Below are positions 2,461 to 42,554 of a stretch of DNA of 46,036 bases, piece by piece. Origin of the DNA: a virus; the IMG/VR virus record IMGVR_UViG_3300032132_000014, positions 1 to 46,036 of that record. The stretch is one strand, 5' to 3'. Under the pieces are notes generated by a model. It did no database searches and was not told where the DNA came from. It worked only from the letters and a program-made list of their open reading frames with translations. Position numbers and translations under genes: made by a program. Position 1 is the first letter of the stretch. Each line of letters starts with the position of its first letter.

Positions 2461-3705
2461 ATGCCATTTTTAGCTATAGACGATGAGGGCAATTATCTAA
2501 GCTGTCCTGATTGTGGCTCCTCAAATTTAATACGCAAGGGGCATAAAGAAACCAAAGACGGACAGCGAAAGCAGCGTTGGTTTTGTTCTCATTGTAATTA
2601 TCGTACCATATATCCTGTTCGCAACAGCCGAGATACCATTGTTGAGAATGTTCGGTTAAGTAAGCAGAAGCAGAGCTATCAGGATCGCAACCGGATTGAG
2701 CGTAAGTCCTTCAGGGAATATGCCCGATTAGAAAACGCAGTTTCTGAACTAAATAAAAAGCTGATTGTCTTATTAAAGGAGCATAAGCTATCCCCCCTTA
2801 AAAGAATAAAAAAAGAAAATGACAGTTGCGTTGGCGTGCTGCAGCTATCAGATAATCACTTAAATGAGCGTGTCGATCTGCCGCACAACACCTTTAACTA
2901 TGAAATAGCCGGGAAACGCTTAAAATTGCTCACAGAACGCGCTAAAATGTTTTTTAAGGTATCTGGCATATCAAATGTTCTTGTGGCTTTTACAGGTGAT
3001 CTACTAAACTCTGATAGAAGATTGGATGAGTACCTTACCAACGCAGGCAACCGATCGGCTGCAGTATTTTGTGCCGTTGATCTATACCAGCAGATGATTC
3101 GTGACCTGCAAAAAAGCTTTAACTTGTCTGTATTAAGTGTCAGCGGCAACGAGTCGAGAGTCAAAGAGGATTATGGCTGGGTTGATGTGGTAGCCACTGA
3201 TAATTACGATCACACCATTGTTAATATGCTGCGCTATATATTCAAAGATAACGATATAGATTTCATTGATGGAGATCCGATGGAAAAGGTTATTGACCTG
3301 GCGGGACAAAAAGTTTTATTTATGCACGGACACGGAAGAATAAAAGCAAATCACGAAACATCCATTAATCAGATCAAAGGTGTATATACATCAAGAGGCA
3401 TTAATTTGGATTATGTGGTATCAGGTCACATACACTCTGCAAGGGTTGGCGACACCTTCTCCCGATCGGCATCGCTGGTTGGTGCTAATGATTACAGCGA
3501 GAAAGCCTTGAATCTTGAAGGCCGCGCATCACAGAATTGTTATGTGTTTCACGATAACGGCAACCGGGACGGCATCAAGATCGACCTAAATAATGTGAAA
3601 AACATAGAGGCTGGATATGCCGTGTCTGAAGAAACAGAAGCATACCACGCAAAATCGTACGATAAATTACACGAACCGGTTACAATAATGAAGATACAGG
3701 TATGA
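2461..3705 (+). CDS. Zinc-ribbon/calcineurin-like metallophosphoesterase fusion
   Basis: 414 residues. Residues 15-45 form a zinc ribbon (C15-x2-C18 and C42-x2-C45) of the type in IS-element InsA-like and terminase-like DNA-binding ribbons. Residues about 60-120 are basic and helical. The rest is a calcineurin-like phosphoesterase: D131-x-H133, G179-D180, a G-N-E at 229-231 where most members have G-N-H-E, H289-G-H291 and G-H-I-H at 322-325. These residues bind two metals in the family, which includes Mre11/SbcD nucleases and phosphodiesterases. A DNA-directed nuclease or phosphatase is likely, with the ribbon targeting nucleic acid. Its stop overlaps the next start by ATGA. No clear ribosome site precedes this start. 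Confidence 0.8.
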   Translation: MPFLAIDDEGNYLSCPDCGSSNLIRKGHKETKDGQRKQRWFCSHCNYRTIYPVRNSRDTIVENVRLSKQKQSYQDRNRIERKSFREYARLENAVSELNKKLIVLLKEHKLSPLKRIKKENDSCVGVLQLSDNHLNERVDLPHNTFNYEIAGKRLKLLTERAKMFFKVSGISNVLVAFTGDLLNSDRRLDEYLTNAGNRSAAVFCAVDLYQQMIRDLQKSFNLSVLSVSGNESRVKEDYGWVDVVATDNYDHTIVNMLRYIFKDNDIDFIDGDPMEKVIDLAGQKVLFMHGHGRIKANHETSINQIKGVYTSRGINLDYVVSGHIHSARVGDTFSRSASLVGANDYSEKALNLEGRASQNCYVFHDNGNRDGIKIDLNNVKNIEAGYAVSEETEAYHAKSYDKLHEPVTIMKIQV

Positions 3706-3953
3706 AAAAGAAAAAGACAATTTCCAAACATGACATTGTTCGCGCGCTCAATATGTTAAATCACAGTACCACTAATCTTGTTACAAGACTTGAGCTGCTC
3801 GAAAAGAATTTTGGCGAATATGTTGAGATGAATAATAATGTAGAGAATCTAAAAAAATATCAAAGTAAAAAAAAAGAGGGAAAACAGAAATGGACAGATC
3901 GTTTGAAACAATGGTTAAAAAGATTATTGAAAGAGAAGGCGGGTCAAAGTTAA
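3702..3953 (+). CDS. Small basic coiled-coil protein
   Basis: 83 residues, starting by ATGA overlap with the phosphoesterase gene. It has a Lys-rich start, a helical middle with leucine heptads (LVTRLELLEKNF) and a very basic end (WTDRLKQWLKRLLKEK). It overlaps the endolysin gene by 64 bases in another frame. The amphipathic basic C-terminal helix could bind membrane or nucleic acid. I recognise no family. Confidence 0.55.
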   Translation: MKKKKTISKHDIVRALNMLNHSTTNLVTRLELLEKNFGEYVEMNNNVENLKKYQSKKKEGKQKWTDRLKQWLKRLLKEKAGQS

Positions 3954-4378
3954 CACGCGATCCTGACGATCCGGGCGGAACCACTAAATATGGCATAAGC
4001 CAGCGAGCGCATAAGGATGTTGATATTGAGAACTTAACATACAATCAGGCCGTGGATATTTATAACAAGCATTATTATAAGCCTTCCAAGGCAAGTTCAT
4101 TTCCTCCGGAATTACAGGAGATATATCTTGATATGGTTGTGAATATGGGTTATTCAAGAGCTGTTAAGCAAGTTCAAAGGGCAGCAAATGCTAAAGGTGC
4201 TGGGATAGAGGAAGATGGTAAACTTGGGCCTGCCACATTAAAAGCTGTTAAAGATACAAAGCTTGAGCCTGAAAGACTTACCGCCTATCGTGTTGCCTAT
4301 TATGTAGAACTTTGCAAAAAAAGACCTTCATTGTGGAAGTTTTACTTTGGATGGTTTCGCCGTTCGATTGAAATATAA
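3890..4378 (+). CDS. Endolysin, glycoside hydrolase family 108 type
   Basis: 162 residues. The N-terminus carries E-R-E-G-G at residues 14-18, with the expected catalytic Glu at 16, followed by DPDDPGGTTKYGIS, the hallmark of GH108 phage lysozymes. The C-terminal half (NMGYSRAVKQVQRA, then DGKLGPATLKAV) matches the peptidoglycan-binding domain that accompanies GH108. The enzyme should cut the glycan backbone of peptidoglycan to release virions. There is no signal peptide, so a holin is needed, which fits the membrane genes upstream. The ribosome site AGAGGGAAAAC lies within the preceding gene. Confidence 0.88.
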   Translation: MDRSFETMVKKIIEREGGSKLTRDPDDPGGTTKYGISQRAHKDVDIENLTYNQAVDIYNKHYYKPSKASSFPPELQEIYLDMVVNMGYSRAVKQVQRAANAKGAGIEEDGKLGPATLKAVKDTKLEPERLTAYRVAYYVELCKKRPSLWKFYFGWFRRSIEI

Positions 4379-4451
4379 TAGTTTTCTAATAAAATATTGC
4401 CCGAAGTAGTCTTTTTGGCGTACTTTTTAGCCGAAACAAGAGGACTAAAAT

Positions 4452-4658
4452 ATGATAATCAAGGCTTCACAAGTACGAAAACTGTTTAATGAGCGCAATA
4501 TTCAGGTAAGCGATGATGCTATTAAAGTGATTGGGGATATGGTATCAAGGGACATCAGAAGAATGGTTGCCCGGTGTGTTGAGGGCAATGTTCCACGACT
4601 CACACCTGACATTATTTATATTGCGCTTGGAAATTTAACGAACAAACACAGGGAGTAA
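4452..4658 (+). CDS. Histone-fold-like small DNA-binding protein (candidate)
   Basis: 68 residues with the spacing of a single histone fold: a short helix at about 5-13, the turn Q-V-S-D-D-A at 18-23, a long helix at about 22-43, a loop with P48-R49-L50-T51, and a last helix starting T-P-D-I-I-Y-I-A-L. Archaeal histones show V-S-D-D-A at the same place and A-E-D-I-E-L-A at the end, and eukaryotic H4 ends T-A-M-D-V-V-Y-A-L. No other domain is present. It has an AGAGGAC ribosome site and lies three bases before the recombination nuclease. Role inferred: compacting phage DNA or acting with the recombination and replication proteins. The fold call rests on pattern matching only. Confidence 0.6.
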   Translation: MIIKASQVRKLFNERNIQVSDDAIKVIGDMVSRDIRRMVARCVEGNVPRLTPDIIYIALGNLTNKHRE

Positions 4659-4661
4659 CCG

Positions 4662-5615
4662 ATGGATAGAGAGCAATTCCTGAAGGAGCGCCTTACAGGA
4701 CTTGGTGGATCGGACATTCACCATTTATTTTATGAGAAACCATACGGATGTTCGCGAAAGTTATGGTATGAAAAAACGAGCCAGCAGCCTGACTATCCAG
4801 TCATTGCTTCTAATATTATGAAAAGGGGCAACAAGCTTGAGCAGCTGATCAGAGATGAATATGTTCTGCGAACTGAGAGGAAAATTCGCCGGGTAAATCG
4901 TATGATAACCAATAGTTCCCATCCTTGGGCAATGGCACATCTTGATGCAGAGATTGTCGCATTTGACGATCGCAAAACCGGGATACTGGAGTGTAAGTCA
5001 GTTGGCAGGCCAATGTATTATAAGATCAGGGATGAGGGCATACCTACCAGTTGGATATGGCAGATGCAGCACTACTTATTAACCACCAATCGAAGTTGGG
5101 GTAGCTACGCTGTACTCTGGGCGGATAATTGGGAGTTTGTTCACTTTGATGTTGAAAGAGATGCAGACTTGCAGCAATCGATCATTGAGGCCGGAACGAA
5201 TTTTTGGCGGATGGTTGAGAACGGCCCTGCGCCTGAACGGCTGGAAGCAAAAGACAAGCGCTGCAGTAATTGTGAGTTTCGTAATACTTGTCAAGGAGAA
5301 AAATTGATGGAACTTGCACAGGGAAATTCTGAAGACATACCATTCGATACTTCACTTGATGAGCTTATGAATGACTATGCATCATTAAAGGTATTGCAGG
5401 AAGAAGCAGCCGACCTGGTGGAAGGAAAGAAACAGGAGATTAAGGCCTCTCTGGGTGATCGGGTGTTAGTTGATTGCACCGGATTTCGTCTGTATTACAA
5501 GCCAGTTGAATCAACGCGGTTCAAGAGTTCTGCCTTAAAAAAGGAGAATCCTGAACTTTATGAGAAATATGCTTACAAAAGCGTATCAAGACCTTTTCGC
5601 ATTAAATCAATATAG
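4662..5615 (+). CDS. YqaJ-family viral recombinase exonuclease with Cas4/AddB-type Fe-S cysteines
   Basis: 317 residues. The PD-(D/E)xK core is visible as E60, D95 and E110-C-K112, with Q134-x-Q-x2-Y behind it, and the N-terminal G-G-S-D typical of the YqaJ family (lambda-exonuclease-like). Four cysteines (C30 in GCSRKLWY, then C201-x2-C204-x5-C210) match the one-plus-three pattern that holds a 4Fe-4S cluster in Cas4, AddB and Dna2. The enzyme should resect DNA ends 5' to 3' to make single strands for the annealase encoded next. The C-terminal 100 residues are helical and may contact the partner. The RecT gene follows after 9 bases. Confidence 0.88.
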   Translation: MDREQFLKERLTGLGGSDIHHLFYEKPYGCSRKLWYEKTSQQPDYPVIASNIMKRGNKLEQLIRDEYVLRTERKIRRVNRMITNSSHPWAMAHLDAEIVAFDDRKTGILECKSVGRPMYYKIRDEGIPTSWIWQMQHYLLTTNRSWGSYAVLWADNWEFVHFDVERDADLQQSIIEAGTNFWRMVENGPAPERLEAKDKRCSNCEFRNTCQGEKLMELAQGNSEDIPFDTSLDELMNDYASLKVLQEEAADLVEGKKQEIKASLGDRVLVDCTGFRLYYKPVESTRFKSSALKKENPELYEKYAYKSVSRPFRIKSI

Positions 5616-5624
5616 GAGGATAAG

Positions 5625-6440
5625 ATGACGAAAGAAACAAGCGTGGTAATTCAAGATGTCGATTTCACCCCGGGACAGATTACCACAATAAAAGAAACTG
5701 TTGCCAATGGCGCATCAGATAATGAGCTGAAACTATTTTTGTACCAGTGTAGTCGCACTGGTCTTGATCCATTAAGTAGGCAGATTCATTTCATTAAAAG
5801 AGGTAGTAAGGCAACGATTCAAACCGGGATTGACGGCTTTAGGGCCATTGCTGAACGAACAGGCCACTATGCCGGTAATGATGATTACCTTTTTAATAAC
5901 GATATGACGATGTATGAAATGTTGAAGGCAAAGATGGAACACCCGATTACAGCAACGGCGACTGTTTATAAGATCGTTGGTGGTGTTAGGGTTTCATTTT
6001 CTGCTACGGCGATATGGGATGCTTACTGTCCTAAAGGCAATGAATCGTTTATGTGGAAAAAGATGCCGTATCTAATGCTGGGCAAGTGTGCTGAAGCATT
6101 GGCCTTGCGTAAGGCTTTTCCAAACGATTTAAGCGGTGTCTATACCGATGATGAGATGGCACAGGCACAATCACCGGCAGAGGTTGTGGTAAATGCAACT
6201 AATGAAAAAACAAAAGCGCTGAAAGCAAAGGTTGAAAAGGCTAAGAACGGCAAGAAGGAATCGAACGATGATATAGCAATGACAGATGATCAGCGAAAAG
6301 AGATTGAAAAGTTGCTCGAGTCCGAGCAGTGCGCTGGTGTAAAAGACAATGTTGAATCGTGGTTGGATAAGGATATATTACATACTTCCAAGGCAGCTGA
6401 CAGTACAATCAATAAACTAAAAAAGATAATTACCGGATGA
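5625..6440 (+). CDS. bet: RecT/Bet-family single-strand annealing protein
   Basis: 271 residues. The segment L-F-L-Y-Q-C-x-R-T-G-L-D-P-L-x-R-Q-I and the following I-Q-T-G-I-D-G-F-R-x-I-A are the core of the Bet branch of phage annealing proteins. Residues about 195-225 are a Lys/Glu-rich linker, and the last 50 form a small helical C-terminal domain. It anneals complementary single strands produced by the nuclease encoded just upstream, which drives recombination and concatemer formation. A strong AGGAGG ribosome site precedes the start, and the stop overlaps the next gene by ATGA. Confidence 0.92.
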   Translation: MTKETSVVIQDVDFTPGQITTIKETVANGASDNELKLFLYQCSRTGLDPLSRQIHFIKRGSKATIQTGIDGFRAIAERTGHYAGNDDYLFNNDMTMYEMLKAKMEHPITATATVYKIVGGVRVSFSATAIWDAYCPKGNESFMWKKMPYLMLGKCAEALALRKAFPNDLSGVYTDDEMAQAQSPAEVVVNATNEKTKALKAKVEKAKNGKKESNDDIAMTDDQRKEIEKLLESEQCAGVKDNVESWLDKDILHTSKAADSTINKLKKIITG

Positions 6441-6925
6441 GATATTACGAGGTGTCAGTCAGAACTTGGGTTTCTGCTGACTTTAAGGCTTTAACGCAGG
6501 ATGGGCAGCTTCTTTGGCTGTTCTTCCTGTGTGGGCCTATTAAAACGCCTTTACCGGGGTTTTATAGTGTCGGGATGGGTGCTTGCTTAGATCATTTGCG
6601 TTGGGAGCCAGACAGATTCAAAAAAGCGTTCAAGGAACTACAGGACAGGGATATGTTGCAGTTTGACGATCAGAACAATGTCATCTATTTGCCGAACTGG
6701 GTAAAATACAATCGACCGCCATCAAATCCCAATGTGATGAAAAGCTGGTTGTCGTTGCTTGAGAATATTCCTGACTGTGATTTAAAGACCGTTTATGTTG
6801 ATAATCTTGTTACAATGGTTCGCCATCTGGACAAGTCAATACAGGGCATATTCGATAATTGGACAGCCTTATACGGTTTCTCCACCGATAACATTAAAGA
6901 TATGGATATTGATTACGATGTCTGA
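6437..6925 (+). CDS. Replication-initiator-like protein with winged-helix N-terminus
   Basis: 162 residues. The N-terminus (VRTWVSADFKALTQDGQLLWLFFL ... GFYSVGMGACLDHL) and the later Y-L-P-N-W-V-K-Y-N-R-P-x-N-P-N-V-M-K match the DNA-binding half of phage replication initiators found in many phages and prophages. In that group the protein binds the origin. The usual C-terminal half is absent here and the next gene overlaps by 8 bases, so initiation may be split over two proteins. Its start is coupled to RecT by ATGA. Confidence 0.75.
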   Translation: MRYYEVSVRTWVSADFKALTQDGQLLWLFFLCGPIKTPLPGFYSVGMGACLDHLRWEPDRFKKAFKELQDRDMLQFDDQNNVIYLPNWVKYNRPPSNPNVMKSWLSLLENIPDCDLKTVYVDNLVTMVRHLDKSIQGIFDNWTALYGFSTDNIKDMDIDYDV

Positions 6926-11610: not shown

Positions 11611-12165
11611 TTATCCTTCCTTTTGTTTTGTTATACAACACCGCTTGTACTTCCTACCTGATCCACAGTAACAAGGTGAGTTCCGCTTTGGCTTCGCTGA
11701 TCCTGTTATTGGCTTTAAGGCCTTATCCATAATGGTAATGCCGTTCAGGTGGTCTATTTCGTGCTGAATTGCTATTGTTTTCAAGTATTCATCCCATTCC
11801 GGCTTCACACTACCAGACTCAAATTCGCCTGTTGATGTTTTGACCTTAATCCATCCGTAGCGAACCACTTTTTTCTCTTGACCCGGGTAAGACATACAAC
11901 CCTCTTTTAATGCTTTAATCGGATAATCTTTTTCTATGATCTCAGGATTAATAAGTATTAAAGGCTCATCGTCTGGTTCAATATGGACAACCGCCACGCG
12001 ATAAGGTAGGCCGATCTGATTAGCAGACATTCCTATTGCTATGGGTTTGTTATCTTTTATTTCACGAATCAGTAACTTTGCAATCTTCTTGGCTTTCCAC
12101 TTGGAAACAGTCTTGCACGATCCGTGTAATAGTTGGTGGTCGTTAGGTATTAGTTTATTATCCAT
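11611..12165 (-). CDS. def: Peptide deformylase with C-terminal SEC-C zinc motif
   Basis: 184 residues. All three deformylase motifs are present: motif 1 as G45-M-S-A-N-Q50-I-G, motif 2 as E88-G-C90-M-S, and motif 3 as Q134-H135-E136-I-D-H139. C90, H135 and H139 are the metal ligands and E136 is the catalytic base. The enzyme removes the formyl group from new N-terminal Met; phage versions are thought to help mature proteins late or early in infection. Residues 164-177 add a SEC-C motif (C165-x-C167-x8-C176-C177), seen at the tail of SecA and other proteins, which binds zinc. This fusion is unusual. It is the first gene of the 12165-9754 unit, behind a GGGAGGCG ribosome site. Confidence 0.92.
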   Translation of the reverse strand: MDNKLIPNDHQLLHGSCKTVSKWKAKKIAKLLIREIKDNKPIAIGMSANQIGLPYRVAVVHIEPDDEPLILINPEIIEKDYPIKALKEGCMSYPGQEKKVVRYGWIKVKTSTGEFESGSVKPEWDEYLKTIAIQHEIDHLNGITIMDKALKPITGSAKPKRNSPCYCGSGRKYKRCCITKQKEG

Positions 12166-33071: not shown

Positions 33072-36000
33072 ATGCCACAGCAAAATTTGCAATGGATATA
33101 TGACTCTGCAATAAAAAATGGGTTGCAAATCGGTGAGTATGATCAATTCACCGATGCGATGAAGGATGAAAATAATCGCAAATGGTTGTATGATGGGTTG
33201 TCAAAAAAGGATGTAGAACTTGGCGACTACAATCAATTTAATGAGCAGCTTGAATCATTAAGTCCCACCGATCAATTATATGGCCCGCCTGATCCAGCTC
33301 CAGTGGATTCAGTTGATTACGATGCTGAAAATATTTTATCACATGAAATATCAAGTCCTGATTCATCTGTAGAAAAAATAACACAAGCAGGATTTTTTGG
33401 TAGTAGTGCTGAAGCAGGAAAAGATGTTGTCCATTCCTCTGACTATAACATACCGCAGATCAATGATAGAGTTTGGGGAGATATATTTAAGGAAAAGTAT
33501 AATAAAAACCTAAATGATGCTCTGCCAGAGGAGGCTATAGATTTTGCTATCAATAGAATACTATTCAACAGTGAGGGGGATAGTCCATTAAAAATACAGA
33601 ACTGGGAAGCATATAATAATGGCTCTTGGGCGAAGTATAAGGACTACACAAACGAAGACTATGTAGCAGTAATGGGTGCTGATCCGAAACACCTTGCTAT
33701 GATAGATTCTCTTGCAGGGCCGGAAGCATCTACAATCAAAGCAGTATTTGCTGCTGAATCAGATTTTGATTCTTCTAAAATTAATACCAATTATATGCCG
33801 AGTAAGGAAAGCGGTATAGAATCAGATGGCAGCGCTGCAAAGCGTGAAGTTGGAATCTACGGACTTGAAAAAGTGGATGTTGCTGGCGAACCTAAATATA
33901 CAATCTCACAAGCACCGGAAGAATCAATATCAGATAGATTCCTTAATCGTTTAGGCAATATGTGGAAGTATCGCGATCTAAGTATTTCAGGCCCATCTAA
34001 AGAAGCAACAGGCGCTCGCGCGACAGTAGAATTTAATAATATGCAGTTTATGAAGGACAGGGCTGCAAAGATCGGTATATATCACCATCCTCGATCACCT
34101 AAATTTGACAAGGAAGTTCGGGAGCAAGTCGCGTGGAATACTATGAGTGCGCCAATGTTATTTACAGGGCCGCAAACCGATCCGATAGGAAGAATGTTTG
34201 GAGCTGCTGCGGTTAAGGGAAGATTCGGAATAGGTGAACTGGGTAAGGCTGAATATGATGAGAGGATGCGCAGGATGGCGAATCCAAGAGAGCATTATAG
34301 AAGAAGATTAAAAGAGATCGGGTTAGATGTAACTGACGGTGATTTTATGGCTTCAGCTTGGACAAACTCTTTATCAGGGATGGCATGGAGCATTGCAACC
34401 GGCAATACACCTGATCTGACCTTTTATCAACCCAGCGACCAGGAGCAGATTGCAGCAGGGATTATGGGACTGATGATGCCATTGGATGCTATATCTTTTG
34501 GTGTTGGTAGTACTATAGCAAAGGGTGCTGTAAAAACAGCCGGAATGTTTACAAGCAAACAATTATTAAAATTAGGTGTTAGTTCTTCGACTGTTAATCG
34601 CGGAATAGCTTTGGGAAAGTCAGGTATTGCACAGGGCATGATCGGTATGGGTGGTGCTTTAGGTACATATGAAGGTCTTGGCAGTCCTTTAAGGCAATGG
34701 ACACAATTAGGTTATATAGACGGACGACAGTGGGCAAAAGATGTGGTAGCTCATACTGCGCTTGGTATGGTTACAGGCGCTCTTGGCGAAGGCGGAATGG
34801 CCTTTGGTAAGTATGTAAGACCTGTAGGCAGGGGATCGAAACTTATACCGGAAGGCTCAAAGTTTGTTGGTGAAGTAATTGGATTCGGCGGATTTTCACC
34901 AATGATAGTTGAGGGAGAAGCACCAGAGTGGCACGATTTTTACGATGCTGCTGCCTTCCTGATCGGAATGAAACTGGCAGCGCCAATGCAGCAGATATAT
35001 GGAAAAGGTTCATATGACTATGTGAAAACTGGCGTATCTAAGATGCTGCGGATGGAGTATTTGCGTAATGGCGGAGATTTTGGCAAAGCACAGGAAACAG
35101 TAAAGAATGGAATTACATCAGCCGTTGAACTTGCAATGGAAGGCAACATTGCTTGGGAGAAAGGCGCGCCATCTGGAGTATCAACAGGAGGAAAGGGTGT
35201 TATATTAGGAGAAAAGCCCAATTTGTCGGTCGATGAGAAGGGCGTTGCGATCATATACGATGAAAAAGGCAATCGTATTCCATTTAAACCTGCTCTTACT
35301 CAAAAAGAATTAGTTTTAACAGGTGAAATCCAAAAGCCAAGGGTTGATTCTGAGGGCAAACCGATCATTGGCCCTGATGGTAAGCCTGAGATGGTTACTG
35401 TTGCGGAAGGTAGAGGTCAGGTTCCTGAAAAAGCACCGGGTGAAACGATGGTTCAAGAAGCGCCTGAAGGCTCTGGTGTTGTATATACTGAACCAGTAGT
35501 TGAAAGAGGCAAGGTTGTTAAAGAAGGTGTCTATACTGCAGTCTATGGGGGAAAAAATGTAGGCGAATTTGCGACAAGGGCAGAGGCTAATGCTAAAATA
35601 GAAGGCCTTACTAAAGAATCAGTACCCCCAGTACCAGTCAGTAAGGCTGTGGCAGAACAGCTGGAAGTACCGGCTCACCTTAGAAAAGAAGCACTGCAAG
35701 GACAATCGGATGCCGTTTTAGATACAATGTATAAACAGGCAAAAACGCCAAGAGAAAAACAGATCATTCGTGTTGAGCAGGAACGCAGGAAACTGACTGC
35801 ACCGAAAGAAGAAGATGTAAGCTCATTAGTTCAAGAGCGTGGTGCATTGCAAGTTGAGCAAAATCGTTTATTTGAAGAATTACAGGCATTGCCGGAAGGT
35901 TCACCTGAATATATAAGGAAAGAACAGCAAATCGTTGAGATGGGTGATCGTATGCAGACGCTGGACAATCAGATCGCTGGTAAAGTTGTTCCAGTTGAGG

Positions 36001-39000
36001 AAGCTAAAGTTCCAAAAGCAGAAGAACCGCCTAAAAAAAAGCCTTCTAAAGAAGAACCACCGACTGAAGTTCCGCCAGTAGAACCGACTAAGCCTCCAAA
36101 AAAAGAACCGCCTTCAAAGAAAGAATTAGACGCAGCTGGAGAAAAACTTGATGTATTATTTAATAAAGAAACTGAATTAATAAAGGAAGCGTTTGGCAAG
36201 GATTCAGATGTAGAGGACATTATTATTAATGAAGATGTTGGTAAAGGAATTGATGTTGCTGGTGAAACATATCATCGACAAAGATGGGAGATAAATCCAG
36301 AGATCAAAGGGGAATTAACCAAATCTCAAAGAGATAAGGCGCAAAAATTAGCTGATGAAGCAAATGCTATCGAGAGAAAATTGTTTGGGCCTGAAGCTAA
36401 AGCACCAGTAGAAAAAGCGCCTGAAACTAAAGAGCCTGAACCAGCTAAAGAAGAACTGCAAAGTAAGTTAGATAAGTATGCTCCTGATTTGGAAGCAGAA
36501 TTAAATCAACTAATTGAAAAAAATAAAAATGCACCATTTCTTACTGAATCGGATACTAAAGAATTACAAGAACGGTTAGATGCTTCAAAGGGTTTTGCTG
36601 AAGTCGTTGAAGCAAGGTTGGAAAAGTTTACCGATGAGGCTTTGTCAAAAGCAAGTGAAAAGACTAAAGAAATGTGGGAAGCTGATGTTAATCGACTTAT
36701 TAAGCATAACGCGGAAGTAACTCTTTTAGAGGCTGAGTTAGCAAAGAGAGGTGGTGGTACTGCTGAAGCACCAGAGGAGTCCGGTGTTACTCTAAGTGAG
36801 TTTATAAAAGCCAAAACAAAGGTTGTATATCGAACTTTTTTTGAAGCACCTCGTGTAGGGTCTTACAATTATAGAAGATTAGAGGATGGAACTTGGTTAA
36901 GCGAAAGGCTGGCTGATCCGACACCAGTTAAAAGTAAATCCTTAATTAAAAAGTTAGAGGCTAAGTTTGAAGCAGATATGGCGGCAGGGAAGACTGATCC
37001 GCTTGAAACCCGTTATCCAGAATTTGATAAAGCAGAAGCGCCAGCTGAACCGCCTGCACCTAAAAAGATTAAGCCTAAAAAATGGGTTGACATCACCGGC
37101 TCTAAGGGAAACAAGCTGGGTGAGTTTGATCAATTACAAGAAGGAGGCGGATATTTTAATTATGGTATAAGAAAAAACAAAAAAGGCGGAGATTTTGAAT
37201 ATAAAATTGTAGAAAAAAAAGCAGATGAATATGGAGTGCGACATAAGACTGTGGAGGGAGAAGTGTTTGATACTTACGAGAAAGCCTTCAATGCGCTGGC
37301 TGATCGTATAGCAAGGCTTGATAGCGGTATGGACAGAAGTAAACTTGTTCCTGAATTACAAAAAGCCGTGTTGGATATAGAAGCTACATTTGATCATCCT
37401 GCTTTAAGGAAAAATAGAAAGGAAGACTTGGTTGATAAATTTTCTAAGAGAGAATTAATAGATATTGCAGACGAAACAATACATCAGCCTGGAGTAAAAG
37501 GATTTCGTTATCAGAGCCTCGGTTCTTTGCCAAAACCAAAGCTTGTTGATGCTATGTTATCGTGGCAAAAACAAGGTGATGTAGCGCGAAAGAAAACTGA
37601 TCCAGAGCTTGCTAAATACACTGAGCCTGAAGCTCCAGCACCAGTTGGAAGGCCGAGTAGCGAGATTATTGGGGAAAAAATAAATAAGGCCAATCTTGAT
37701 ATAGAACAAGCTGCTCTTAAAACAAAATATCCGGATGAGTATAGCGCTCTCACTACGGAAAGAAAATCCGAAGGGGTCGATGGATTGTATCAAGAACTTT
37801 ATGGTAATAAAGAAAAAATAGATGCTATAGAAAAAGATTTAAAAGATCGCAAAATAAGAACACATCGAAGGAATGACTCAAGTTTAGATGTAAATCTTGT
37901 TGATTTGTCAATGAAAAGTGGGTCTTGGAAAGATGTTAGCCACAGGTCGCCTAAACAGTTACTTATTTCTTTAGCGAAAGGAGAGCAAATAGTAGAGAAA
38001 GCTCCTCCTAAAGCACCAGCAAAAGAACCAAAGCCGTTAACAGACAAAGAAAGAGAAAATATAGAGGAAAAGCTTTTAGGGGAATTTGGGTATAAACGAG
38101 GAGAAGTTGTAAATGAAGAAAGGCTTTTAGAGCAGCCAGCGGACTTTGAAAAAGCAAGTCAGCTTCTTTCCTTGGGTGAGGTTGCGTATTACGCTGAGAA
38201 ACCTCTGACTGACACGGTAGTTGCTTGGTCAGACGGAGTTCGTTTAGGCGAATTTGGAAGCAAAGCAGAAGCTCATAAAGTTCTTAATAAATATGTTAAA
38301 AAACACCATAAGGGAATAAGGGGTATAGTAGGCCCTGATGTTCCAAAACCTTTGTTCGAAGTGGGAGAAAAAGTTAAGCTATCGGAAATTCTCGGTAAAA
38401 AATGGGGCGCTGGTGGTGAAACTGTTAAAATTTTATCGAATAATAAAGTAAGAGTAGGAAACGAATGGAAATACGAAGTACAAACTAAGGGAGGTGAAAG
38501 ATTTTGGACAAATGAGCTTGGGATTATGTCTCGACCAGCAAGATCAGCGAAGCCTGTTAGTGAAAATTTAGCTAAAGCAAAAGTAAGTGGGGATAAGAAA
38601 AAAGTTGAAGCGATTGAGGATGCTGAAAAAGGCAAGGTCAGGGAAGATGAGCCGCTGGCTGTGCTTGAATTACTCGCTGAAAGAGCAAAGATTAATGCCA
38701 AAATTATAGCAGAGTTTGGAAAGAAACGACCAAACGAAGATAAGATTCGGGATTTAGCGGTCGAAAGATCAGCTTTAACCGAAGAAATAGGAAAAGCGAA
38801 GCTCGGAAAACCTCGAACTGGCGATCAGGTTACACTTACACCGACTAAAAAGACTAAAAAGGGCGAGAAAAAGGTTGTAAAGAAACCTATTGATGATCCT
38901 GCAATGCGTGGCAAGATTGAATTGCAAAACATTTTTGAGAGTATAAGAGATCAAGTAGAGATTCAGATTGCAGAAAGCGGAGTTACTGGCACTGAGTATG

Positions 39001-42000
39001 TCGGAAAGCCGCTTGAGATAGATTGGGATAGGGTTGTAGCTCCAGAGAATAGCAGATTTGTAGATGCGCCGATGGAGGGTAAGCCGGGATGGTTTCGTTA
39101 TGACCTTGAAATTAACCTGCCAAATGTAAATGGGACATATAGTGTAAATGTTCCTGAAAGTGTAATTATCAAGGGCGGAAAAATTGATTTAAAGACAGGA
39201 GGGGGCGCGTTTTTTGGAAAATTTAGTAAGGCTAATATAACGAAAGCATTTAAAAATCCAACAGTCCCAACACTTCGCGGAGCAAGTTTACGCGGCCCAG
39301 AAAATGCACCTCAATTTACTGCTCCTGCGCGTAAATCACTTGCCCAGCAGGATCATAAAGCACTGAATACGGCGCTTAGTGGCTATAAGAAGCGCTTAAA
39401 AAAGTATCAGGCATATAAGAAGCCTACAGGGGATGTTCAGCGCTCTATTGGCGAATTAAAAGAAGCAATTAAAATTGCGGAAGATTTAGTAAAGGTACAA
39501 AAAGAGGCCGATCGGCTGGGTGGCGCGGTGGTTGGTATGGATTTCATACCCGGAACTACTGCTTTCTTTAATGCAATGCGCCGGTGGAAACGATCTAAAC
39601 TGCCGATTTCAGATCGTAAAAAGCTGGACAGTCTTATAAAGCGCTCTAATAAACTACATAATAAATGGGTAGCTGAAGGTCGGGTTGACAGGGAAATGGA
39701 AGGTCGCCTTGGGAAATTAAGCGATGAGATCGTGGCGCTGGAGAATAAGGTAAAAAATCAAATTCCATCTGAAACAGAGATGGTTAAGATTAGTCAGGAT
39801 ATTAAATGGCCTTCGAGGACAACGGATCTCCGCCGGACACATAAGAAACAGCGCGATTTGACGAAGAAGCTGGAGGAAGTTGGCGTTGAAAGTGTTGATG
39901 AGAACTTTCGCGATATAAAACTTCAAGTAACAAAAGGTCGTTCAGACTCTCAAAAAGATTTTACCAAAGAAGAAATTGTATTATATGAAGAAATTTTAGA
40001 TAGAATGACTAATAATGGCGGCTATCTTGACGATATGCCGGTTATGTTGACAGAGTTATCGAAGAATGAGAATTTATGGGCAAATAAGGTTCATCAGACA
40101 TTTGGTTTTGCTTTTTCAAATATATCAAGAATAAAAGCTATGGGTGCAGCGGGTAGAGAATTAGCGCAGAAAGCCACAGATTTCGTGATCAGGCAGACGC
40201 AATTAACTGGTGATGGTGAAGCGACATTATATAGAATCGGTAAATTAATCGGCAGAAAGAATATGAAATACTTTTCGGCTGCTGTTGATCCGTATCTGGC
40301 AGAAGGAGTGGATTTTAAGGGTAAGAACAAGGAAAAGTTTTTAAATGATCCTAAGACAAAAGAAGCAGTACGATTATGGAGGGAATATACAGATCGGCTG
40401 CACGCTTTAAGAGTTGAGCATGACACTTATGTTGTAAAAGATATTGATGGTAAAAAAGTAAAAGTTGACGCAGCAGACACATATATTGACAATTGGTTGA
40501 GGCGGCAGTTAAAAGTTGATGTTTATAAAGAGCTTGTTGGAGGAGGAAAAAAGTATGAAAGAGAAATTGAACGATTGATGAAAAGAGGACAGGCAAAAAC
40601 AAGAGCAGAAGCAGAGCAAGCTATTGGAGCGTGGCTGCGGAGATCGCCGTATTATGAACAGGAAGTAAGATATGGATCAGCGGACAGGCCTCGGCTATTG
40701 GAGCTTTCGCCTGAATTGTATGAAACAGACTTCACGATAATCGCGCCCGGGATCACACGCCGTTATGCGACATTTCTTGCCGGCGCAGAGGTTTTTACTC
40801 AGGATATGAAGGTTAGGGATCAGCTGGTGGGCCGCATAGGTACAACAGTTGGGGGAAAGAACTCAATAGAAGCGTCTGAAATAATGCAGACTATAATTGA
40901 AGGATCAAGACACCAGCCGCCGTGGGGAGCTATGGGATCGACAAGATTTGTTAGCGCCCTCCATCTTACTTCCCCAAGAACATTCTATAATAATATTATG
41001 TATTCGCATAACACTGATTATCCTGCTATGGGAACAAGGGCAGTAGTAAAAGGATGGTTTAATTTTTTAAGACATCCTATAGCGTCATTAATGACTGCAA
41101 GAGAAGCAGGTCAGCTCGGTGTTGGAGTACGCGAGATCGAAGCAATTACTTTTGAAAAAGGACTGAAAAGATGGCTGGGCTGGTTTCCCGGAGGTATTAT
41201 ACCTTCTGAATTGGGAAATCGCGGGAGAGCAACAATTTCAGCGGGTACAGCTGCTGAAATGTATCTAAGATATATGAAAAATGATATATCACCTGAAATA
41301 ATGCAGATGCTTCCAAGGAGATTACATACAAAATTAAAGGCAAAAACAGGAAGATTGTTTTTTCAAGATTTTGGAGGGTTTAGTAATAAGCAAATAGATA
41401 AAATTGTGGAGCGCGGGTATTTGACAGATGCCGAGATTAAAAGAATGGAAACTTTCCTACCATCAGTTACGCAGGGATCGACACACCCATACTTTATGCC
41501 GGAAATGTTCTCAGGAAAACTTTCATTCCTGGGGGGTTTGCAAAAGATGTCTTACCGCGCCACTGCCGGTGTATATAAAGCGGCGTTTAAACCAGCAATG
41601 CACGCAGATTTTGGCCCAATGGCAAGATGGATCGCTGCTGGAGCTATTGGTGGTGAACTATCATACTATATTAATTATGCTTTATTCGGATGGGAACATC
41701 CGGAAGGTGGTGATATTGATAATTTTATTGAACATCTGCACGGAGATGCTGCAAATAAAGATAAGATAAAAGCAAGTTTGCTTCGGGTAGGCCGCAATAT
41801 GTTACGAGCTTCAGGCTTTGGTATAATGTCTGATTGGTTTAAGGGGTACGGATTTGCACCGGTCATATTTGACGCATATAAGAATTTTCATAATGAGATA
41901 GGTTATGTATTAACAAACAAAAAGAGTTTTGGGCAATTAGGTAACGATCTGGGCGAAGCGCAGGTTGCCATATATCGTGATTGGGTGCGGCTTCAAAGAG

Positions 42001-42554
42001 CAAGATTACAGCCAAGATCAGCTGAATACAGAAATTACTCTAATGTAAAAAGATATAATAGCCAGTTCATTAAAGAGATCAGGCCTCAAAAGAAACAGGA
42101 TACACAATATACTTTAAGCGATAATTCATTGCCTTTCAGGGAAATAAGAGAGGCTTGGTGGGTAGCTGATGCAGATGAAATGGAAAAAGTTATGTATGCC
42201 GCAAGAAAAACAATAGGAGATAGAAAAGTAGCGCTCCGCGAAACTGCAGAAGGAAAATTTGAGTTAAAAGGCAAAGATCAATACAAAGGCTTGGAAAGAT
42301 GGGGAACCATAGAAGCACAAAAATCAATCAGTGGCCTGATCCGCGGGATGCACCCGCTGGATGGAATTTCCGGGAATCTTGTTGTTACAGTTGATGGCAA
42401 ACGCTACACGCTTAAATCTTCAACAAGCAAGAGTCCTGATGCGAATATATTCTGGGAAGGCCTGAAGCCGCACCAGCAAAGAAATGTATTAAAGGCAGTG
42501 GAAGACTACAAGAATATTTATAAGGAACTAAAATTAAGTAGATATGTTAAATAA
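33072..42554 (+). CDS. Giant 3,160-residue ejection/polyvalent protein
   Basis: The gene takes a fifth of the genome. The N-terminus holds two copies of W-[IL]-Y-D-x-[GA] ... E-[YF]-[DN]-Q-F units (residues about 8-60). Residues about 430-650 carry hydrophobic and Gly-rich helices (IAAGIMGLMMPLDAISFGVG and GMIGMGGALGTYEG), and a second set lies near 2840-2870 (RWIAAGAIGGELSYYINYAL). Residues about 970-1,030 are a Pro/Lys/Glu linker, and more such linkers follow. Two short repeats (V-Y-G-G-K-N-V-G-E-F-A-T-R-A-E-A near 820, and W-S-D-G-V-R-L-G-E-F-G-S-K-A-E-A near 1,718) suggest a recurring small domain. Near 1,450-1,500 is a SAP/Rho-N-like helix pair. I see no clear lytic transglycosylase or polymerase motif. 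Such proteins are packaged and pass into the host with the DNA. Domain-by-domain function is open. Confidence 0.75.
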   Translation: MPQQNLQWIYDSAIKNGLQIGEYDQFTDAMKDENNRKWLYDGLSKKDVELGDYNQFNEQLESLSPTDQLYGPPDPAPVDSVDYDAENILSHEISSPDSSVEKITQAGFFGSSAEAGKDVVHSSDYNIPQINDRVWGDIFKEKYNKNLNDALPEEAIDFAINRILFNSEGDSPLKIQNWEAYNNGSWAKYKDYTNEDYVAVMGADPKHLAMIDSLAGPEASTIKAVFAAESDFDSSKINTNYMPSKESGIESDGSAAKREVGIYGLEKVDVAGEPKYTISQAPEESISDRFLNRLGNMWKYRDLSISGPSKEATGARATVEFNNMQFMKDRAAKIGIYHHPRSPKFDKEVREQVAWNTMSAPMLFTGPQTDPIGRMFGAAAVKGRFGIGELGKAEYDERMRRMANPREHYRRRLKEIGLDVTDGDFMASAWTNSLSGMAWSIATGNTPDLTFYQPSDQEQIAAGIMGLMMPLDAISFGVGSTIAKGAVKTAGMFTSKQLLKLGVSSSTVNRGIALGKSGIAQGMIGMGGALGTYEGLGSPLRQWTQLGYIDGRQWAKDVVAHTALGMVTGALGEGGMAFGKYVRPVGRGSKLIPEGSKFVGEVIGFGGFSPMIVEGEAPEWHDFYDAAAFLIGMKLAAPMQQIYGKGSYDYVKTGVSKMLRMEYLRNGGDFGKAQETVKNGITSAVELAMEGNIAWEKGAPSGVSTGGKGVILGEKPNLSVDEKGVAIIYDEKGNRIPFKPALTQKELVLTGEIQKPRVDSEGKPIIGPDGKPEMVTVAEGRGQVPEKAPGETMVQEAPEGSGVVYTEPVVERGKVVKEGVYTAVYGGKNVGEFATRAEANAKIEGLTKESVPPVPVSKAVAEQLEVPAHLRKEALQGQSDAVLDTMYKQAKTPREKQIIRVEQERRKLTAPKEEDVSSLVQERGALQVEQNRLFEELQALPEGSPEYIRKEQQIVEMGDRMQTLDNQIAGKVVPVEEAKVPKAEEPPKKKPSKEEPPTEVPPVEPTKPPKKEPPSKKELDAAGEKLDVLFNKETELIKEAFGKDSDVEDIIINEDVGKGIDVAGETYHRQRWEINPEIKGELTKSQRDKAQKLADEANAIERKLFGPEAKAPVEKAPETKEPEPAKEELQSKLDKYAPDLEAELNQLIEKNKNAPFLTESDTKELQERLDASKGFAEVVEARLEKFTDEALSKASEKTKEMWEADVNRLIKHNAEVTLLEAELAKRGGGTAEAPEESGVTLSEFIKAKTKVVYRTFFEAPRVGSYNYRRLEDGTWLSERLADPTPVKSKSLIKKLEAKFEADMAAGKTDPLETRYPEFDKAEAPAEPPAPKKIKPKKWVDITGSKGNKLGEFDQLQEGGGYFNYGIRKNKKGGDFEYKIVEKKADEYGVRHKTVEGEVFDTYEKAFNALADRIARLDSGMDRSKLVPELQKAVLDIEATFDHPALRKNRKEDLVDKFSKRELIDIADETIHQPGVKGFRYQSLGSLPKPKLVDAMLSWQKQGDVARKKTDPELAKYTEPEAPAPVGRPSSEIIGEKINKANLDIEQAALKTKYPDEYSALTTERKSEGVDGLYQELYGNKEKIDAIEKDLKDRKIRTHRRNDSSLDVNLVDLSMKSGSWKDVSHRSPKQLLISLAKGEQIVEKAPPKAPAKEPKPLTDKERENIEEKLLGEFGYKRGEVVNEERLLEQPADFEKASQLLSLGEVAYYAEKPLTDTVVAWSDGVRLGEFGSKAEAHKVLNKYVKKHHKGIRGIVGPDVPKPLFEVGEKVKLSEILGKKWGAGGETVKILSNNKVRVGNEWKYEVQTKGGERFWTNELGIMSRPARSAKPVSENLAKAKVSGDKKKVEAIEDAEKGKVREDEPLAVLELLAERAKINAKIIAEFGKKRPNEDKIRDLAVERSALTEEIGKAKLGKPRTGDQVTLTPTKKTKKGEKKVVKKPIDDPAMRGKIELQNIFESIRDQVEIQIAESGVTGTEYVGKPLEIDWDRVVAPENSRFVDAPMEGKPGWFRYDLEINLPNVNGTYSVNVPESVIIKGGKIDLKTGGGAFFGKFSKANITKAFKNPTVPTLRGASLRGPENAPQFTAPARKSLAQQDHKALNTALSGYKKRLKKYQAYKKPTGDVQRSIGELKEAIKIAEDLVKVQKEADRLGGAVVGMDFIPGTTAFFNAMRRWKRSKLPISDRKKLDSLIKRSNKLHNKWVAEGRVDREMEGRLGKLSDEIVALENKVKNQIPSETEMVKISQDIKWPSRTTDLRRTHKKQRDLTKKLEEVGVESVDENFRDIKLQVTKGRSDSQKDFTKEEIVLYEEILDRMTNNGGYLDDMPVMLTELSKNENLWANKVHQTFGFAFSNISRIKAMGAAGRELAQKATDFVIRQTQLTGDGEATLYRIGKLIGRKNMKYFSAAVDPYLAEGVDFKGKNKEKFLNDPKTKEAVRLWREYTDRLHALRVEHDTYVVKDIDGKKVKVDAADTYIDNWLRRQLKVDVYKELVGGGKKYEREIERLMKRGQAKTRAEAEQAIGAWLRRSPYYEQEVRYGSADRPRLLELSPELYETDFTIIAPGITRRYATFLAGAEVFTQDMKVRDQLVGRIGTTVGGKNSIEASEIMQTIIEGSRHQPPWGAMGSTRFVSALHLTSPRTFYNNIMYSHNTDYPAMGTRAVVKGWFNFLRHPIASLMTAREAGQLGVGVREIEAITFEKGLKRWLGWFPGGIIPSELGNRGRATISAGTAAEMYLRYMKNDISPEIMQMLPRRLHTKLKAKTGRLFFQDFGGFSNKQIDKIVERGYLTDAEIKRMETFLPSVTQGSTHPYFMPEMFSGKLSFLGGLQKMSYRATAGVYKAAFKPAMHADFGPMARWIAAGAIGGELSYYINYALFGWEHPEGGDIDNFIEHLHGDAANKDKIKASLLRVGRNMLRASGFGIMSDWFKGYGFAPVIFDAYKNFHNEIGYVLTNKKSFGQLGNDLGEAQVAIYRDWVRLQRARLQPRSAEYRNYSNVKRYNSQFIKEIRPQKKQDTQYTLSDNSLPFREIREAWWVADADEMEKVMYAARKTIGDRKVALRETAEGKFELKGKDQYKGLERWGTIEAQKSISGLIRGMHPLDGISGNLVVTVDGKRYTLKSSTSKSPDANIFWEGLKPHQQRNVLKAVEDYKNIYKELKLSRYVK

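Follow-up and report, generated by a model that had tools for sequence, protein, structure and literature searches.

A short basic protein with a predicted histone fold, encoded just ahead of recombination genes in a tailed phage and its relatives

The DNA analysed here, called the window throughout, is a stretch of 46,036 nucleotides comprising positions 1 to 46,036 of the IMG/VR record IMGVR_UViG_3300032132_000014. It carries genes for a large terminase, a P22-like portal and an SU10-type capsid protein, which identifies the source as a tailed phage, in keeping with the phage origin assumed in a preliminary description of the locus, and the host is likely to be a bacterium. One relative sits on a contig of 7.4 kb that is assigned to a Marinimicrobia MAG, although this assignment could be a binning error. 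The locus consists of a short gene for a basic protein, preceded by an endolysin gene and followed in the same direction by genes for DNA recombination and a putative helicase loader, with the following features.

3890-4378: endolysin gene, upstream of the histone-fold gene
4368..4395, plus strand: promoter-like match before the histone-fold gene (TTGAAA, 16, TAAAAT)
4382..4407, no strand assigned: AT-rich palindrome, degenerate here, of which several relatives have an intact copy in their leaders
4452..4658, plus strand: gene for the predicted histone-fold protein, 68 residues plus stop, basic (open reading frame translation, model, relatives)
4464..4493, plus strand: predicted helix 1, residues 5-14, K/R9 kept in 29 of 29 members (A4 model, family alignment)
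4512..4583, plus strand: predicted long helix 2, residues 21-44 (both AlphaFold2 models)
4584..4607, plus strand: loop L2, residues 45-52, G-N-V-P/K-R-L-T-P, conserved (partly fixed by the search pattern)
4605..4625, plus strand: predicted helix 3, residues 52-58, of lower confidence (A4 model)
4662..5615, plus strand: YqaJ/RecE-like exonuclease, starting 4 nt past the histone-fold gene (Pfam YqaJ, 5.7e-28)
5625..6440, plus strand: RecT ssDNA annealase (Pfam RecT, 1.3e-30)
6437..6925, plus strand: weakly DnaD-like helicase-loader protein, downstream in the same direction (phrog_1701, 2.6e-7)

Promoter-like matches of this kind are no commoner here than in shuffled sequences. Elsewhere, the window encodes, ahead of the endolysin gene, an exonuclease-like metallophosphoesterase whose N-terminus is zinc-ribbon-like (2461-3705, plus strand; phrog_284, 9.5e-54). 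It also encodes a phage-borne peptide deformylase with a SEC-C motif at its C-terminus (11611-12165, minus strand) and, at 33072-42554 on the plus strand, a single open reading frame of 3160 aa which takes up about one fifth of the contig.

The 68-residue reading frame lies at exactly the coordinates first given for it, and the translation of 4452-4658 contains both of the motifs quoted at that time, V-S-D-D-A as residues 19-23 and T-P-D-I-I-Y-I-A-L as residues 51-59. Homologues are present in many viral contigs, and dN/dS lies between 0.05 and 0.25 in 10 of the 12 computed pairs of relatives, namely those with dS below 1.5, which indicates purifying selection. Because of these relatives and the low dN/dS, 4452-4658 is regarded as a gene and not as a chance reading frame; in one further contig of the window's clade, the reading frame is broken across two frames. 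The 68-residue protein by itself gave chance-level matches only in Pfam and PHROG (DUF1186 and an RNA polymerase PHROG), and a sequence search of the PDB likewise returned only chance matches (CBS-domain, PPR and ClpX).

The fold of the protein was addressed by AlphaFold2 models of single chains. The first model, obtained from the shallow 13-row alignment A4, has a pLDDT of 78.8 and a pTM of 0.58, with helices at residues 5-14, 21-44 and 52-58 and an unstructured end at residues 61-68. The second was obtained from alignment A8, which holds four distant relatives (L042, L044, L045 and L036) and leaves out the window protein; its best model has helices at 5-14, 21-44 and 52-60 (pLDDT 76.1), the remaining four of the five having a mean pLDDT of only 52-56. 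As the four rows of A8 also belong to A4, this is a separate yet not fully independent test. A short-long-short layout of three helices is common to both models, and the long middle helix noted in the preliminary description is residues 21-44 in each. All 50 PDB matches listed per search, with Foldseek and VIA and for both models, are histones, NF-Y or chains of TFIID/SAGA-type complexes, the last of these being counted as histone folds on the strength of their titles. Among the matches listed by VIA for the window model, the best are HLp (Z 6.2, 2.0 Å over 55 residues), HTkC (Z 6.1) and HBb (Z 5.8), which superpose at an rmsd of 1.6-2.1 Å over 52-57 residues, while HMfB reaches Z 4.8 with 3.0 Å over 62 residues. 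The best Foldseek match against the PDB has a probability of 1.00 with an E-value of 0.15, and such E-values are by themselves not significant; a Z of 5-6 is middling for a helical protein. The fold argument therefore rests on the uniform match lists and on the agreement of the two models, by which the histone fold proposed earlier is supported as a prediction.

It is distinctly unlikely that the protein is no histone at all but a generic three-helix phage protein whose models are similar to histones by chance. Histones are not clearly found by sequence profiles, and helix 3 and the tail are of low model confidence, both of which would fit such a protein; against this, the two models converge, the listed matches are uniformly histone folds, and a basic charge is maintained throughout the family. 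Furthermore, among predicted viral proteins in BFVD, an unnamed 64-residue entry modelled by others matches with a TM of 0.83 and an E-value of 1.3e-3. A further match, with a TM of 0.69, is to a protein of 64 residues from an uncultured phage of the Caudovirales. The BFVD entries A0A516LUS5 and A0A6J5QYV5 are candidates for membership of the same family.

At the level of sequence profiles, the likeness to histones is only marginally above background. CENP-X (PF09415) and CBFD_NFYB_HMF (PF00808) are histone-fold families. The former is weakly matched by 6 of 13 members (best E 0.0086) and by 6 of 29 in a wider Pfam scan, the latter by 3 of 13 (best E 0.06), in each case below the curated cut-off (one CENP-X score is 12.5 bits against a cut-off of 25) and alongside other matches such as T4_CASP and TFX_C. 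The profile of the window's clade scores 20.6 against four archaeal histones, above all of 200 column shuffles (mean 9.7, maximum 18.2). The whole-family profile scores 17.1 and that of the distant members 15.6, the latter in an alignment that is out of register, and three of the 200 shuffles reach each of these scores; when PDB sequences were searched with the profile of all 29 members, no histone came up. Of the profile similarity to which the preliminary description had looked, the rise of the clade profile above every shuffle stands, but clear similarity is not supported. The motifs do not carry the argument either, although they had been read as signs of a histone: D21 is kept in 11, D22 in 14 and an aspartate at residue 53 in 13 of the 29 aligned members, so VSDDA and TPDII mark the window's clade and not the family. 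The comparison with the C-terminal motif of H4 (T-A-M-D-V-V-Y-A-L) is one residue out of register, and the term "doublet" does not apply, as there is one fold per chain.

In predicted structure, the closest known proteins are alpha3 histones of prokaryotes (HLp from Leptospira perolatii, HTkC from Thermococcus kodakarensis and HBb, or Bd0055, from Bdellovibrio), with which the window protein has in common a single short histone fold, a similar length and a basic L2 loop. Unlike these, it is encoded by a phage beside recombination genes, and it lacks the R-D clamp described for alpha3 histones (R51-D58 in HBb, R55-D62 in HLp): V/I47 is found in 29 of 29 members and residue 54 is never an aspartate. 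According to Schwab et al. 2024 (PMC11390915), alpha3 histones have a helix 3 of 3-4 residues and a helix 2 that falls 4-5 residues short of the nucleosomal one, whereas helix 3 of the window family is predicted, with moderate confidence, at 7-9 residues. This is too long for the window protein to be called a member of the alpha3 histones, and it is described as closest to them instead. Predicted helix 2 has 24 residues in both models, and residues 1-62 of the model align with HMfB 1-67; the overall span, as distinct from the helix ends, would be consistent with a shortened helix 2. With HMfB, the window model shares the three-helix fold, the SDDA turn of the window's clade and a basic residue, R9 at the place of R10; it differs in being about 5 residues shorter over the aligned span and in having Q18 at the place of R19. 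The places of the HMfB R52-D59 salt bridge would correspond to V47 and I54, judging from the structure alignment.

Virus-encoded histone folds have been described before. In the "phage histones" of Schwab et al. 2024 (PMC11390915), the histone fold is followed by a helical domain at the C-terminus, for which tetramerisation is predicted, and the RxTxxxD motif is missing. The window protein resembles them (example A0A2E7QIQ9) in its tailed-phage origin, its alpha3-like fold and the absence of this motif; in the window protein, R49 and T51 are present but there is no aspartate at the motif position. However, its chain stops at residue 68, once the histone fold is complete, and has no counterpart of the tetramerisation domain. 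For this reason it is not filed under "phage histones", a separation made by description and not by sequence. Histones of giant and other eukaryotic viruses are likewise virus-encoded, but they are reported to be similar to the core histones of eukaryotes, with fused doublets among them in several cases, while the window protein is one short fold. The H1-like protein reported from large aquatic phages is a different thing (PMC12619734). Searches of open-licence papers found no description of single-domain phage histones, and on the evidence of the models, the family may represent a further type of prokaryotic histone-fold protein, unnamed in the databases searched.

The extent of this family was explored by scanning viral contigs (denoted by L numbers) for a DNA pattern that covers loop L2 together with helix 3 and in which residues 45-47, 49-51 and 57-60 were fixed. 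The pattern matched 48 stretches, 21 of the window's clade and 27 new and distant ones; a family HMM confirms 46 of these, and the remaining two are fragments that were read by eye. Of the distant reading frames, 26 are whole, most of them 61-71 aa long and three longer (84, 84 and 146 aa, with starts upstream). Alignment A9 takes 18 of the 26, leaving out seven near-duplicates and the longer reading frame of L091, and its distant members have 34-45% identity to the window protein. No convincing Pfam or PHROG match was found for family members; one member matched phrog_23914 at 1.3e-4. A tblastn search with eight members against 50,697 phage records gave nothing significant: six had no match (at an E limit of 10 for two and of 1 for four), and the best E for the other two was 0.8.

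A more distant homologue of 102 aa and 29% identity is encoded at L063:1501-1809, in a genome from the same phylum as the Marinimicrobia MAG. Its contig bears an integrase and a major tail protein and is probably a prophage; a search of the viral contigs found no relatives of this protein. Beyond the histone part, it has a cysteine pair and a helix-like C-terminal stretch, and it might connect the window's family to the published phage histones. A small cysteine-rich gene recurs near the distant members in L081, L085, L090, L095, L102 and L116. In L091:9604-10044 (minus strand), one 146-aa reading frame joins a cysteine-rich stretch and the histone fold, or else the true start differs from the upstream one; if real, this fusion would recall ZZ histones. 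Five cultured phages, of Marinitoga, Listeria, Exiguobacterium, Enterococcus and Geobacillus, also have small genes in front of YqaJ, and these were considered as homologues and rejected as unrelated by eye, one of them being annotated as helix-turn-helix. A host histone as the source was likewise rejected, as no match above the PF00808 cut-off exists in 244 genomes from the phylum of one relative's MAG, with a profile that may miss alpha3 histones.

Conservation within the family is informative about a possible DNA-binding face. All 29 aligned members are basic, with a pI of 8.7-10.7. Outside the search pattern, K/R9, F12 and Q18 are each kept in 29 of 29 members, K/R48 in 25 and Y/W56 in 23; R49 and T51, each in 28 of 29, fall within the pattern, so that the conservation of residues 45-47, 49-51 and 57-60 in distant members exists by construction. 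If positions are counted from the SDD turn, residues 9 and 18 would match R10 and R19 of HMfB, which anchor that histone in minor grooves (PMC6136690), and residues 48-49 would fall on the position of the KT motif in loop L2 of HBb, which contacts DNA (PMC11317129). By this analogy, the conserved basic and polar residues would map to the DNA-binding face of a histone dimer, formed by the start of helix 1 and the two loops. Published work describes HBb as a dimer that bends DNA and HLp as a tetramer that wraps it, and bending by a dimer is therefore the simplest expectation.

The genomic neighbourhood further links the family to DNA recombination. As the preliminary description had pointed out, the gene stands just before the YqaJ nuclease, which begins at 4662, and the annealase, RecT at 5625. 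This order of histone-fold gene, YqaJ and RecT is that of the window's clade, where a gap of 2-4 nt precedes YqaJ in every one of the 23 contigs, window included, that have an unbroken or 5'-truncated copy of the histone-fold gene. At 18 of the 26 distant loci, a gene for a RusA-like resolvase lies less than 1 kb away on the same strand, and phrog_244 was confirmed in all four such loci scanned. Other distant members have genes nearby for Sak4-like (L114), DnaB (L105) and ParB (L106) proteins, a DNA methyltransferase (L107) and a Cas4-type exonuclease (L113). As the family gene is encoded beside recombination genes, a DNA-binding role is suggested; the neighbourhood fits a helper of replication or recombination, equally as nucleoid protein, branched-DNA factor or regulator.

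The protein could serve branched DNA (forks, D-loops, Holliday junctions) and aid exonuclease, annealase or resolvase in the manner of MHF (CENP-S/CENP-X), and not form bulk chromatin. No other Pfam family is touched by as many members as CENP-X (6 of 13 and 6 of 29), recombination genes adjoin the family gene in both clades, and a link to DNA recombination may be common to the family and MHF2/CENP-X. MHF2 works as a heterodimer with MHF1. This reading is nevertheless considered fairly unlikely, as the CENP-X scores lie under the Pfam cut-off alongside chance matches and the nearest folds are dimeric or tetrameric alpha3 histones. Put more broadly, and with a similarly small share of our belief, these widespread minimal phage histones would be a recombination cofactor, a counterpart of MHF that, as a dimer, would attach to phage DNA that is branched or resected and direct enzymes of the YqaJ-RecT or RusA type.

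The leader of the histone-fold gene, on its endolysin side, is conserved as well, and several relatives hold an AT-rich palindrome in it, about ATTTCTcaTAATATATTAgcAGAAAT (L042:3741-3766, L004:2879-2902), of which no further copies exist elsewhere in the window. The palindrome is a possible operator, which raises the idea of an early-operon regulator that binds its own leader and is no general coat of phage DNA. In the related phage L050 (3759-3971), and likewise in L049, both with a RecT that is 68% identical, the slot before YqaJ is occupied by an HTH_17 protein of the excisionase kind instead of the histone-fold gene, which would agree with such a function. On the other hand, the window has only a degenerate copy of the palindrome, which may be there for another regulator, and most single histone folds bind DNA without sequence specificity, so that regulation of this kind seems unlikely. 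Very improbable is an anti-host role, by which the protein would silence the host chromosome or shield phage DNA from host nucleases; it is indeed a small, basic, presumably early phage protein, and a host histone is not evident from the PF00808 search, but the neighbouring genes tie to recombination and none points to defence or takeover.

The explanation that we favour, with somewhat more belief than doubt, is that of a basic single-domain histone-fold dimer which binds and bends phage DNA as an early nucleoid protein in replication and recombination. The window protein would fold as a single basic histone domain, for which the alpha3 histones of prokaryotes are the nearest structures, and two chains would pair head-to-tail. 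Such a dimer may grip double-stranded DNA regardless of its sequence, by way of the helix 1 start (K/R9), L1 (Q18) and L2 (K/R48, R49 and T51), and would bend or compact the DNA bound. The gene is probably co-transcribed with YqaJ and RecT, so the protein could act early in infection, as a nucleoid protein on phage DNA that is being replicated and recombined.

Few histones are known from bacteria or the viruses that infect them, their recognition is recent, and the published phage type has an extra tetramerising helix. Phage proteins of mostly 61-71 residues that consist of the histone fold only and are encoded next to recombination genes in many environmental phages would broaden the known range of histone folds. 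The family supplies very small proteins for structural and DNA-binding work, and it makes the use of histones by phages testable as chromatin, regulation or recombination. If the recombination-cofactor reading were true, histone folds would have entered the service of DNA repair in viruses of bacteria.
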